NCBI GenBank assembly: GCA_016869515.1
Contig: VGDZ01000014.1
Coordinates: 1 to 53,276, forward strand
Direction: 5' to 3'
Length of the DNA stretch: 53,276 nucleotides
Source of the DNA: Alphaproteobacteria bacterium
GTDB lineage: Bacteria; Pseudomonadota; Alphaproteobacteria; VGDZ01
Shown: positions 2,019 to 35,175 of the stretch, piece by piece
How positions within the stretch are numbered: the stretch's first letter is position 1
How the letters are laid out: the number at the start of each line of letters is the position of its first letter
Notes under the pieces: generated by a model
Databases searched by the model: none
Told to the model about the DNA's origin: nothing
Seen by the model: only the letters and a program-made list of their open reading frames with translations
Position numbers and translations under genes: made by a program

Positions 2019-3326
2019 CTAAAAAGCCACATCCAGGATGAAGGTGACGATCTCGGGATAGGCCGTCAGCAAGGCCAGGGTCAGCAGATCGGCGACGATG
2101 AAGGGAAGAATGCCGCGGAATATGTCGCCGAGCGGAATGTCCGGCCGCACGCCGTTGACCACGAAGCAGCACAAGCCCACCGGCGGGGTCAAGAGCCCGA
2201 TGCCGCACAGCTTGACGACGACGATGCCGAACCAGATGCCGTCATAGCCCAGCGCCGAGATCACCGGATAGACCACCGGCAAGGTCAAGAGCAGCATGCC
2301 GATCGGGTCCATGAACATGCCCAGCACGATGTAGATCAGGTAGATCGACACCAGCACCAGAAGCGGCGGGACATTGGCGCCGACGATCCACGACGCCAGC
2401 GTCTCGGGCAAATTGGCGAAACCGAGGAAGCGGACGAAGATCAGCACGCTCCAGATGATGGTGAAGATCATCACCGACAGCCGGGCCGAATCCTGCAGCG
2501 CCTGCATCAGCTCGCCGCGCTTCATGCCGTGCGCCAGCGCCAGCACGAAGACGCAGAACGCGCCCAGCGCGCCGGCCTCGGTCGGCGTCGCCCAGCCGTA
2601 GAACATGGCGGTGAAGATGATGCCGATGACGAGCAGGATCGGAAACGTGCCCGGGACCGAGCGCCAGCGCTCGCCCCAGCTGTAGCCGGTGATCGGGCGT
2701 CCGAGCTCGGGCCGAAGCCCGCACAACGCGACCACGATCAGGGTGTAGACCGCGGCCGAGACCAGCCCGGGCACGAAGCCCGCGATCAGCAGCTTGCCGA
2801 TCGATTCCTCGACGATGATGCCGTAGACCACCAGCAGCGCCGAGGGCGGGATCAGCGAATCGAGCGTCGATCCGGCCGCGACCACGCCCGCCGCCAGCCT
2901 GCGGTCGTAGCCGGCCTTGAGCATTTCCGGGATCGCCACCTTGGCGAACACCGCCGCCGCCGCGGTCGAGGCGCCCGACACCGCCGAGAACCCGGCCACG
3001 GCGTAGATCGTCGCCACCGCCAAGCCTCCCGGCAGCCAGCCGAACCAGCGCCGGCAGGCCTCAAACGCCGACTGGGTGATGCCGGCATAGAACGCCAGAT
3101 ACCCGATGAGAATGAACATCGGCAGCACCGACAGCGTGTAGTTGATCGACTTGGCGTAGGGGATCACGCCGATGGTCTTGATGCCCGCCTCCCAGCCGGT
3201 CAGCGCGATCAGCCCGAGCGCGCCGACCAGGCCGGCGGCGAAGGCGATGCGCATGCCGATCGCCGCCAGCAGGAACAACGCTCCCGCGCCGATCAGCCCG
3301 ATCTCGACCGGTGTCAGCCCCGCCAT
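2019..3326 (-). CDS. dctM: TRAP transporter large permease (DctM family)
   Basis: Large membrane subunit of a tripartite ATP-independent periplasmic transporter, which carries organic acids using an ion gradient. The 435-residue product is hydrophobic along its whole length, with about a dozen membrane segments. It carries DctM-type stretches such as [16 protein letters not shown] (about residues 110-126) and [17 protein letters not shown]. It follows the small permease gene by 3 bases, and the substrate-binding protein is upstream, so P-Q-M form one operon. It ends 25 bases before the dnaK promoter region. The substrate cannot be read from the sequence. Confidence 0.93.
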
Positions 3327-3329
3327 GTC

Positions 3330-3944
3330 TCAATCCCTGCGGGCATCGGCGCGGCCGAGGGATTCGGCGATCTCCTCGCGCGCCTGCTCGGCCGCGCTGT
3401 GGATCGTCGGTACCCCGAGCGGCGCCAGTTCGGGCCGCCGCACCAGCCGCCCGTAGCCGATCAGCTGCACCAGCAGCCGCAGCCACAACAATCCCAGCGC
3501 GATCGGCACCACCAGCTTGGCCGGCCAGATCGGCAGCCGGATGTCCATGGTCGAATCGCCCAGCTGATAGGCGCGCTGGAAATTGAGGAAGGTCGAATAG
3601 ACCAGCATGCCGACGATGACCAGCGCCAGCAGGATGCCGATCGCCTCCAGCACCCACATCGCCCGGCGCGGCAGGTTCTGCAGCACGACTTCCATCCGCA
3701 CATGCCCGCCCAGGCGCTGGCAATAGGCCACGCCCAGGAAGGCGACCAGCACCGAGGACTGCTCGATCCAGTCGATGTAGCCGTGGATGGCGTAGCCGAA
3801 CAGCGAGCGGCCGACGACCTGGACCACGCCGATGAACATCAGCACGAAAATCGCCGCCGCCGACACTAGGTTGAGGCCGTTCTCGACCTGCGCCAGCGCG
3901 CGGTCGAACGGTCCCAGCGCGCCGGTCTCGACGGCGCCGGCCAT
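3330..3944 (-). CDS. dctQ: TRAP transporter small permease (DctQ family)
   Basis: Small membrane subunit that links the periplasmic binding protein to DctM. It has 204 residues and four predicted membrane segments (roughly residues 27-48, 62-80, 100-120 and 145-165). The pattern NLVSAAAIFVLMFIGVVQVVGR near the N-terminus is typical of DctQ. The C-terminal 35 residues are a hydrophilic tail (REEIAESLGRADARRD) a little longer than usual. It is the middle gene of dctP-dctQ-dctM, 25 bases after the dctP stop. Confidence 0.9.
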   Translation of the reverse strand: MAGAVETGALGPFDRALAQVENGLNLVSAAAIFVLMFIGVVQVVGRSLFGYAIHGYIDWIEQSSVLVAFLGVAYCQRLGGHVRMEVVLQNLPRRAMWVLEAIGILLALVIVGMLVYSTFLNFQRAYQLGDSTMDIRLPIWPAKLVVPIALGLLWLRLLVQLIGYGRLVRRPELAPLGVPTIHSAAEQAREEIAESLGRADARRD

Positions 3945-15439: not shown

Positions 15440-16210
15440 TCAGCGCGGATCGGTATCGACCGGCCTGATTTCGTCGCCGACGGCGATGCGGCCGGGGGCG
15501 ATCACCTCGAGATAGATTCCCATGTCGGTGTGGCCGTAGCCGGTCATCAGCGACTTGAGCAGGTTGAGATCGCGCTTGGCGCTGACCGGATCGACATTGA
15601 CCGCGGCGCAGCGGTTGATGCGCTCGGGCACCCGAAAGCGCGCCTGGCCGATGGCCAGTTCGCGGCCGACCCAGCCGAACTCGGCCCAGGGCTCGGCGCC
15701 CTCGATCAGGAGATTGCCGCGAAAGCGCAAGGGATCGACCGGCGCGGCGGCGACGCGCTCGAGGTCCTTGACCGAGGCGCGGTTGATCAGCGACAGCGTC
15801 TTGCCGGGAACGTCCATGAAAACGTGGCCTTCGGCCGCCACCAGCCGCGGCGCGCCGCGCGCCTCGTCCGCCAGATAGGCGCCGAAGAACTGCTCGATCA
15901 CGGCGCGGCCGACCGGGGTCGAGACCTCGCCGCGCGCCACCGCCCGGCCGTCGCGCGACACGGTCAGCACGCGGCTGTGCGGATCGAAGCGCACGCCCAG
16001 CGCCGCCAGCCGCTCGTTCCGTTGCAGCATGAAGAAATTGGTCTTGCTCATCCATTCCGGCGCCTCGGGATCGAAGCGGGTCGAGCCGTGCGCCAGCGCC
16101 AGCACGCGGTCGTGCGGAATCGCCCCGCCGATTTCCAGATCGGCGGTTTCGACGGCTTCGGCGCTCATGCCCTTGACGGGATAGCGATAGAGGGCGGCAA
16201 GACGGGCCAT
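15440..16210 (-). CDS. MOSC domain protein (YcbX/mARC-like)
   Basis: A 256-residue protein with an N-terminal MOSC_N beta-barrel (LAALYRYPVKGMSAEAVE) and a C-terminal MOSC domain. The conserved cysteine is in ERINRCAAVNVDP, where this family coordinates the molybdenum cofactor. RFRGNLLIEGAEPWAEFGWVG and YLEVIAPGRIAVGDEI are typical. Members reduce N-hydroxylated compounds or handle sulphur; the exact substrate is unknown. ATG 16210 (MARLAALYRYP) fits the family start better than upstream in-frame codons, which would run into a direct repeat. Convergent with rpoH. Confidence 0.88.
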   Translation of the reverse strand: MARLAALYRYPVKGMSAEAVETADLEIGGAIPHDRVLALAHGSTRFDPEAPEWMSKTNFFMLQRNERLAALGVRFDPHSRVLTVSRDGRAVARGEVSTPVGRAVIEQFFGAYLADEARGAPRLVAAEGHVFMDVPGKTLSLINRASVKDLERVAAAPVDPLRFRGNLLIEGAEPWAEFGWVGRELAIGQARFRVPERINRCAAVNVDPVSAKRDLNLLKSLMTGYGHTDMGIYLEVIAPGRIAVGDEIRPVDTDPR

Positions 16211-16226
16211 GCCCCGGGGCATACAC

Positions 16227-16249
16227 GCCCCCCTTGCCGCCGGCAAGCC
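16227..16249. repeat. 23-bp direct repeat, left copy
   Basis: Identical over 23 bp to 16838-16860. It starts with G plus six C and contains the perfect palindrome CTTGCCG-C-CGGCAAG (16233-16247). It lies in the leader of the MOSC gene. The two copies are 611 bp apart and enclose the toxin-antitoxin module. Confidence 0.85.
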
Positions 16250-16267
16250 TGCACCGGGCGGCGCGGC

Positions 16268-16320
16268 TTGACCCTCGGATGCGGTATATTTATGAAATTG
16301 TAGGAACAAGTAGGAATTTC
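16268..16320 (+). promoter_or_regulatory. Promoter and candidate operator of the toxin-antitoxin operon
   Basis: TTGACC (16268-16273) and TATGAA (16291-16296) are 17 bases apart. Directly downstream is an AT-rich patch with TAGGAA repeated at 16301-16306 and 16311-16316, set inside an inverted repeat GAAATT (16294-16299)/AATTTC (16315-16320). Helically phased repeats fit binding by the ribbon-helix-helix antitoxin. The start codon ATG 16324 is 3 bases on, so transcription from here would give a very short leader. Confidence 0.55.
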
Positions 16321-16323
16321 GAA

Positions 16324-16605
16324 ATGCCCCGCGCCACCACCGTCCTGTCGATTTCGCTGCCGCGCGCCATGGCCGCCCAGCTCGACCGCGTGCGCAAGGC
16401 CGAACACCGCACGCGATCCGAACTGGTGCGCGAGGCGCTGCGGCATTATGTCAGCGCGGCCTCCACCCGAGCCGTGCGGGCGCGCGCGGCCGCCTTGCCC
16501 GAGGTCGAACCCGAAGCCGACGAAATCGCCGCGGTGGCGGCGGGCCGGGCGCGGGTCCTTCGGCGCGGCGCGGGCGATGATCTGGCGCGTCGAGCCAAGC
16601 CGTAA
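16324..16605 (+). CDS. CopG-type ribbon-helix-helix antitoxin
   Basis: A 93-residue protein that probably neutralises the downstream RelE/ParE toxin and represses their shared promoter. The N-terminal 45 residues (TTVLSISLPRAMAAQLDRVRKAE, then RTRSELVREALRHYV) match a CopG/MetJ-like ribbon-helix-helix: one beta strand followed by two helices. The C-terminal part is acidic (LPEVEPEADEIAAVAAG) and would bind the toxin. ATG 16324 begins MPRATTVLSIS directly. It overlaps the toxin gene by 29 bp. The operon is enclosed by 23-bp direct repeats. Confidence 0.85.
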   Translation: MPRATTVLSISLPRAMAAQLDRVRKAEHRTRSELVREALRHYVSAASTRAVRARAAALPEVEPEADEIAAVAAGRARVLRRGAGDDLARRAKP

Positions 16606-16834
16606 CGCACGCAAGAGCCTCGATCGTCTGCCGCCGGCGGATCGGCGTCGGATCGAGGCCGCTCTCGCAACTCTGTCGACCGATCCACTGGCCGGCGATG
16701 TGGTCAAGCTCAAGGGCCTGGACGCGTTCCGCCGCCGGGTCGGCGATTATCGCGTAATCTTTGGTATCGATTTTCCGGCCCGCAAGGTGCTGGTTTTCGA
16801 CATCCTGCGCCGGACCACCACGACGTATCGCTGA
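16577..16834 (+). CDS. RelE/ParE-family toxin
   Basis: An 85-residue basic protein of the RelE/ParE fold. Family marks are VEPSRNARKSLDRLPPADRRRI at the N-terminus, DVVKLKGLDAFRRRVGDYRVIF in the middle (the KLKG...RxRxGDYRVIF core), and KVLVFDILRRTTTTYR at the end. RelE-type members cut mRNA on the ribosome and ParE-type members attack gyrase; the sequence alone does not decide. ATG 16577 lies inside the antitoxin gene, a common arrangement that couples their translation. Its stop is 3 bases before the right direct repeat. Confidence 0.87.
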   Translation: MIWRVEPSRNARKSLDRLPPADRRRIEAALATLSTDPLAGDVVKLKGLDAFRRRVGDYRVIFGIDFPARKVLVFDILRRTTTTYR

Positions 16835-16837
16835 AAT

Positions 16838-16860
16838 GCCCCCCTTGCCGCCGGCAAGCC
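16838..16860. repeat. 23-bp direct repeat, right copy
   Basis: Exact second copy of 16227-16249, including the CTTGCCG-C-CGGCAAG palindrome (16844-16858). Its CTTG (16844-16847) is also the best candidate for the -35 box of the clpB promoter. Confidence 0.85.
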
Positions 16861-16874
16861 GCTGACCCACATAA
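16844..16874 (+). promoter_or_regulatory. Possible RpoH-type promoter of clpB
   Basis: CTTG (16844-16847), 18 bases, then CCCACATAA (16866-16874). The -35 box fits the RpoH consensus but the -10 box matches only in part, so this is weak. clpB is a usual RpoH target, which adds some prior support. The predicted leader is about 85 nt. Confidence 0.35.
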
Positions 16875-16969
16875 GGAGCGGGGACAAGCGCCGTGCCTGC
16901 GGGGCGGCGGCTTGTGCCCGGCAGTCCACCGCATCCGCCCATCCGGGGGATGTGCCGAAAGGAACGGTC

Positions 16970-19606
<2,637 letters not shown>

Positions 19607-35100: not shown

Positions 35101-35175
35101 GCCTCAACGCACGATCGCTTCTCTGCGCGCGCCTCAACGCGCGATCGCTTCTCTGCGCGCGCCTCAACGCGCGAC
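35101..35175. repeat. 30-bp tandem repeat at the 3' end of the M24 gene
   Basis: Two full 30-bp units (35101-35130 and 35131-35160) differ by one base, A or G at position 11. A third copy begins at 35161 and matches for about 14 bases (GCCTCAACGCGCGA) before running into the coding end of the M24 gene, whose stop is at 35164-35166. Each unit therefore carries a copy of the gene's last codons. Nothing else is seen in the rest of the 34943-35163 gap. Confidence 0.8.

Follow-up and report, generated by a model that had tools for sequence, protein, structure and literature searches.

The stretch of DNA analysed here (the window; 53,276 nucleotides of an alphaproteobacterial contig) carries, between a gene for a MOSC-domain protein and the clpB chaperone gene, a putative two-gene toxin-antitoxin (TA) operon, which is bounded on each side by a copy of the same 23-bp sequence (Table 1). 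The antitoxin and toxin genes overlap by 29 nt, and this arrangement, an RHH_1 antitoxin followed by a toxin of the ParE_toxin family encoded in overlapping genes, is that of the RHH/ParE-RelE type II TA systems, of which the pair is, judged by its sequence, an ordinary member with putative toxin-antitoxin activity. In addition to its family match, the toxin matches the structures 1wmi_A (E 1.8e-6) and 3g5o_B (E 0.0039); NCBIfam gave no match for the five proteins searched. The name CopG-RelE operon used in the initial annotation holds at the family level through PF01402 for the antitoxin and PF05016 for the toxin, the latter family covering ParE and RelE types alike.

Table 1. Features at the MOSC-clpB junction of the window
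Feature	Position	Strand	Matches and remarks
MOSC-domain protein, left neighbour	15440..16210	-	PF03473 and PF03476
Left copy of the 23-bp repeat	16227..16249	+	has CTTG (-35); the -10 box would have been lost through insertion
Insert between the repeats, 588 bp	16250..16837	+	TA operon and promoter region, without terminal inverted repeats
RHH (CopG-like) antitoxin, 93 aa	16324..16605	+	RHH_1 PF01402, E 4e-11; antitoxin EndoAI chain 4me7_E, E 1.7e-6
ParE/RelE-superfamily toxin, 85 aa	16577..16834	+	ParE_toxin PF05016, E 5.9e-6, 27.2 bits (cut-off 23)
Right copy of the 23-bp repeat	16838..16860	+	would provide the -35 of the sigma-32-type clpB promoter
Predicted sigma-32 (RpoH)-type clpB promoter, CTTG-N18-CCCACAT	16844..16872	+	would have been rebuilt by the duplication
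clpB chaperone gene, right neighbour	16970..19606	+	ClpB_D2-small, AAA_2, Clp_N

The TA operon together with its leader occupies all of the DNA between the two repeat copies, with 74 nt from the left copy to the antitoxin start and 3 nt from the toxin to the right copy. This DNA contains no transposase or integrase, as the initial annotation had it, and is slightly richer in AT than its surroundings (GC 0.67, against 0.70 in the flanks), and the best match between its two termini, 6 of 8 positions, gives no terminal inverted repeats. Just before the antitoxin start, at 16300-16316, lies a short direct repeat, GTAGGAA-CAA-GTAGGAA, which could be a TA operator.

The bounding sequence, GCCCCCCTTGCCGCCGGCAAGCC, is an exact direct repeat with a spacing of 611 bp, and its core is the 15-bp palindrome CTTGCCG-C-CGGCAAG. 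Direct comparison upheld the remaining positional claims of the initial annotation as well: the repeat with its coordinates and spacing, the palindrome in each copy, the start of the right copy 3 bases past the toxin stop (TGA at 16832-16834) and the position of the left copy in the MOSC leader, where it begins at a distance of 17 nt upstream from the probable MOSC start codon (ATG at 16210, minus strand). Among the exact direct repeats lying up to 2 kb apart in the window, the 23-bp repeat ranks second, surpassed by a tandem repeat of 33 bp; in 40 order-1 Markov copies of the window, exact repeats within the same distance reached at most 17 bp. The top-ranking one, at 35112-35174, is a short tandem repeat with a period of 30, seen as a 33-bp exact direct repeat. 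In the 3.69-Mb genome the 15-bp core has just two sites, which are the two repeat copies, and a search for the whole 23-mer with up to three mismatches gave one further match, with three mismatches. The 15-mer is thus not scattered through the genome in the way that a common terminator would be, which the initial annotation had named as an observation that would speak against insertion. A terminator can also be ruled out on structural grounds, the palindrome folding into a 6-bp hairpin that has no T-run and no signal in the fold z-scores (0.08 to -1.1), and a dispersed palindromic repeat of the REP type can be ruled out by the two genomic copies of the core. Rfam gave no match on 16000-17200 up to an E-value of 1, and a sigma-70 promoter scan found no promoter.

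What the repeat contains becomes apparent from the clpB side. The pattern CTTG-N17-19-CCYAYAT, with at least six of seven positions matching in the second box, occurs upstream of clpB in 12 of 17 alphaproteobacterial relatives, against 0.06 expected from shuffles, although the -10 pattern CCYAYAT was composed after inspecting these relatives; the published consensus agrees with it, the RpoH consensus sequences in the available text of PMC4843759 being CTTGAA-N15-16-CCTATAT and CTTGCC-N15-16-CCTATCT. In the window, the right repeat copy opens a CTTG-N18-CCCACAT element that matches the second box in 7/7 positions, and this, together with the relatives, bears out the suggestion that the right copy would supply the CTTG of a possible clpB promoter. 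The sequence at the -10 spacing to the right of the left copy, CGGGCGGC, is no -10 box, and because the left copy lacks a -10 box at promoter spacing, the insertion point would lie between the -35 and the -10 of clpB. In three of the relatives (L006, L038 and L040), short inverted arms (e.g. GTGTC..GACAC) lie between the -35 and -10 of the clpB promoter; the window has comparable arms, CTTGCC..GGCAAG, in its clpB promoter, for which chance and a shared operator are both possible.

The same relatives show the junction itself. The comparison first covered 57 other genomes of the same class as the window, none closer than class, and the junction sample comprises the 17 MOSC-matched loci at which clpB is divergent from and adjacent to the MOSC gene within about 1 kb. 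Aligning the MOSC-clpB junction of related genomes, as the initial annotation had proposed, found the module absent in all of these class-level relatives: neither antitoxin nor toxin was detected at the junction in 17/17 (tblastn, E 1e-3), and in 13 of them the gap between the two genes is a bare 117-321 nt. The corresponding gap in the window measures 760 nt and falls to 149 nt once one 611-bp unit is removed. The palindrome is absent from all 17 junctions, so that module-free relatives with two repeat copies, the second observation named beforehand as speaking against insertion, did not occur. A candidate for the empty allele of the window thus comes from distant relatives of the same class, whose junctions lack the TA pair and mostly share the promoter element; the putative homology of the window's site to these junctions rests on a short promoter motif. 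At L020, L034, L035 and L039 the two genes are about 640-940 nt apart, and longer reading frames of other kinds seem to lie between them; the MOSC-clpB interval may be a possible landing place for small genes (4/17 relatives). Contigs titled Mycobacterium, Thiomargarita and Frankia (L025, L037 and L044) bear an alphaproteobacterial-type MOSC gene, and their titles may be wrong; at the clpB junction, L025 closely resembles L028, a contig of Inquilinus.

A homologous TA pair occupies an unrelated site in another genome of the class. The best toxin match outside the window's own genome, with 48% identity among 385 genomes searched, is at locus L055, where the pair lies between direct repeats of its own, the 17-bp sequence GCCTGACCGCCTGCGCT at 1174-1190 and 1791-1807 (spacing 617), with 54 nt from repeat to antitoxin and 17 nt from toxin to repeat. 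The left copy includes the last codon and the stop of a ridA-type gene (PF01042/PF14588). In relatives, the junction between ridA-type and FemAB-like genes occurs without a TA pair and with short gaps in L090-L095, L099, L103, L106, L108, L111, L113, L115 and L116, and with another gene between the two in L107, L109, L112 and L114. The repeats of the window and of L055 are unrelated in sequence and are therefore not a common recombination site.

A clear empty site is found for locus L208 (genome G161), at which a ParD/ParE pair lies between 137-bp repeats of 95% identity. A genome of the same genus (G259; 94% nucleotide identity here) has a single 137-bp copy and no TA pair; positions 1-1460 of L208 align to 1501-2945 of G259 and positions 2191-3261 to 2809-3878. 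The sequence outside each copy, to the left of the left one and to the right of the right one, matches G259. The picture in G259 would be equally expected from a deletion between the repeats; even in that case, the origin of the repeats at L208 would still need an insertion of such a kind.

The frequency of this architecture was assessed in 192 distinct ParE/RelE loci, the window's included, which were taken roughly in order of E-value from a longer list and without regard to repeats; identical sequences were counted once, a few of the loci overlap one another, L151 was excluded (no TA match) and L022, L023, L087 and L088 were left out. A locus was scored as repeat-bounded when self-blastn found imperfect direct repeats around the toxin region at E <=1e-3, with a length of at most 260 nt and within 750 nt on each side. 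By this rule 19/192 ParE/RelE loci are repeat-bounded, as compared with 8/597 intervals obtained by an 800-nt shift across all locus sets and 0/90 control genes (FemAB 0/30, GNAT 0/30 and ABM 0/30), which were not matched for accessory status (P 3.5e-7). Removal of the window leaves 18/191 (P 1e-6), and a strict count by hand gives 12/191 (P 6e-4). A second TA family, HicA, is repeat-bounded at 2/30 loci (P 0.06). An initial count of exact repeats of at least 14 bp had given 22/192 loci, two of which (L075 and L150) are a tandem TA duplication and were left out under the self-blastn rule; at these two loci, which represent the same place, a whole ParE/RelE-type TA unit is tandemly duplicated with a period of 676. 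Three of the positives are weak (L121, L178 and L206), L060 adjoins an IS110-family transposase and the repeat of L156 has a third copy. CRISPR-array-like repeats lie beside the TA locus L231, at 2145-2960. The feature may not be specific to TA modules as compared with other small transferred genes, because direct repeats at small variable segments are reported generally in the available text of PMC2884548.

The repeats of the various loci are between 17 and 222 bp long (between 21 and 222 nt when measured by self-blastn), differ in sequence from locus to locus and, where this can be identified, contain host gene or promoter sequence: the repeat of L265 corresponds to about the last 140 bp of ychF plus a few bases past the gene, and that of the HicA locus L299 to the end of a UDP-glucose dehydrogenase-type (ugd-type) gene. 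The long imperfect repeats of L265, L208 and L174 are 86-97% identical. At L174, the full-length 222-bp repeat is present in its own genome at its two flanking places only, and a search of 41 genomes for an empty site found no close relative. The inserts were measured at 11 loci and are 554-735 bp long in ten of them (887 in L069); their GC content is below that of the flanks in nine (the exceptions being L074 and L199), and none of the 11 has convincing terminal inverted repeats. A classical DNA transposon or a MITE can be ruled out, since there are no terminal inverted repeats and the length of the duplication is not fixed across loci. Direct duplications of varied sequence thus edge bare TA operons at other loci as well, with one clear empty site.

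Insertion with site duplication, as the initial annotation had proposed for the window, is supported by the 17/17 TA-free junctions, the promoter element within the repeat, the separate repeat of L055 and the empty site of L208. We consider it probable, at roughly 0.7, that a bare 588-bp RHH/ParE-RelE TA operon was inserted in the clpB promoter by a route of a transposase-free kind, duplicating 23 bp of its target. In the proposed model, the TA operon would land between the -35 and -10 of clpB and split the promoter, with the 23 bp of target being duplicated during insertion; the right copy would restore a complete CTTG-N18-CCCACAT promoter and the left copy would be left as a relic in the MOSC leader. 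In this way clpB would have kept its heat-shock control, and the insertion would therefore have been tolerated. As the molecular step, a break with staggered ends or some reaction of copying is most probable, and in either case the overlap would be filled in at the two edges of the TA DNA that was captured. Two filters may then determine which insertions are seen: the duplication would have to make the adjacent gene or promoter whole again, and the toxin would presumably penalise any loss of the module by way of its repeats, so that addiction would shield the repeats from deletion. Tests of stabilisation by TA systems have been mixed; according to the available text of PMC2654758, superintegron TA systems stabilise DNA and dinJ-yafQ and ccdO157 did not. 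More tentatively, and with less than even confidence, we suggest that bare type II TA operons could be minimal selfish units that move without a transposase and duplicate 17 to more than 200 bp of target, a route that restriction-modification (RM) genes would share; such insertions would survive because the gene or promoter next to them is restored by the duplication, and addiction to the TA pair would afterwards prevent the collapse of the repeats.

Other origins of the repeats have to be weighed against insertion with target duplication. A TA circle carrying a match to the target could have been integrated by a Campbell-type single crossover, through RecA, or by site-specific integration with an integrase acting in trans, leaving repeats like attL and attR. 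Direct repeats on both sides of the module are what such integration would leave, the repeats may include the 3' end of a host gene, as many att sites do (ridA at L055, ychF at L265 and the ugd-type gene at L299), and the long imperfect repeats of L265, L208 and L174 would suit homologous donors. We nevertheless regard integration as unlikely: the repeat sequence varies by locus and so offers no att core in common, repeats of 17-23 bp are short for RecA, and the insert, with little sequence to spare, could not accommodate an integrase. It is more improbable still that the module is what remains of a larger mobile element after the loss of its mobility genes, with the TA pair left between terminal duplications. 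Mobile elements commonly carry TA pairs, as stated in the available text of PMC3874152, but the repeats sit tightly on the operon (74 nt ahead of the antitoxin and 3 nt behind the toxin in the window, 54 and 17 nt in L055), the insert sizes cluster, decay would seldom leave just the TA pair so often, and the 11 measured loci already point to a bare operon at many different sites. Less credible again is a reading of both copies as working regulatory sites, i.e. RHH operators or paired promoters, rather than insertion scars; the palindromic core would fit a dimeric RHH repressor and the right copy does lie within the clpB promoter, but the repeat of L055 is a different sequence that overlaps a host gene, the left copy in the window ends well before the antitoxin start and off the AT-rich leader, and the -35 function is present in TA-free relatives. 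A chance repeat, for which the GC-rich region could be cited, is refuted by the 17-bp maximum in the 40 Markov windows.

Insertion of RM genes with long target duplication has reportedly been treated by Furuta et al. (2010). It is described for Helicobacter pylori (Nobusato et al. 2000, via PMC1643837), and the target duplications are given as long and variable, of the order of 100 bp, by Mruk and Kobayashi (PMC3874152; also PMC1643837 and PMC3031569), as far as these texts are available. As in the RM insertions, an addiction module is found here without a transposase and with a direct duplication of variable length, recognised by comparing related genomes; in contrast to them, the cargo, about 0.6 kb long, is a type II TA operon. 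At 23 bp, the duplication in the window is short beside those of RM genes, which are of the order of 100 bp, and the window is therefore best said to work like RM insertion with long target duplication, not to be a member of that class. Long target duplication is assigned to RM systems in the 2013 review that covers both kinds of module, and the available text makes no such claim for TA systems (PMC3874152). The small variable segments described in 2010 (PMC2884548), which are common in other species, are likewise polymorphic inserts of small size that have direct repeats at the base, mostly below 30 bp and found at 10-18% of segments in four genome sets; in the text available, TA modules are not singled out and the stress is on deletion between repeats. 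The TA pairs of Tn3-family transposons likewise move between sites but, in the available account (PMC7157771), ride with a transposase, whereas the insert in the window is too small for any transposase gene. In the open-licence PMC literature, as far as its text was accessible to searching, no report was found of TA modules inserted with such target duplications. As far as searched in that literature, a known kind of TA operon is thus combined with a mode of insertion that is known for RM modules and apparently unreported for TA modules.

Chromosomal TA operons are highly mobile, and to our knowledge there is little to explain how a bare two-gene operon enters a chromosome. Scoring a duplication scar from sequence makes this entry testable, by asking which repair or copying reaction generates the scar, and also lets one ask whether addiction modules are over-represented through blocking the loss of their repeats. 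The window suggests that insertion into a promoter can be harmless, the duplicated -35 rebuilding the predicted heat-shock promoter of clpB, and copied landing sites at about one in ten of the related TA pairs checked hint at a transposase-free spread of these operons.
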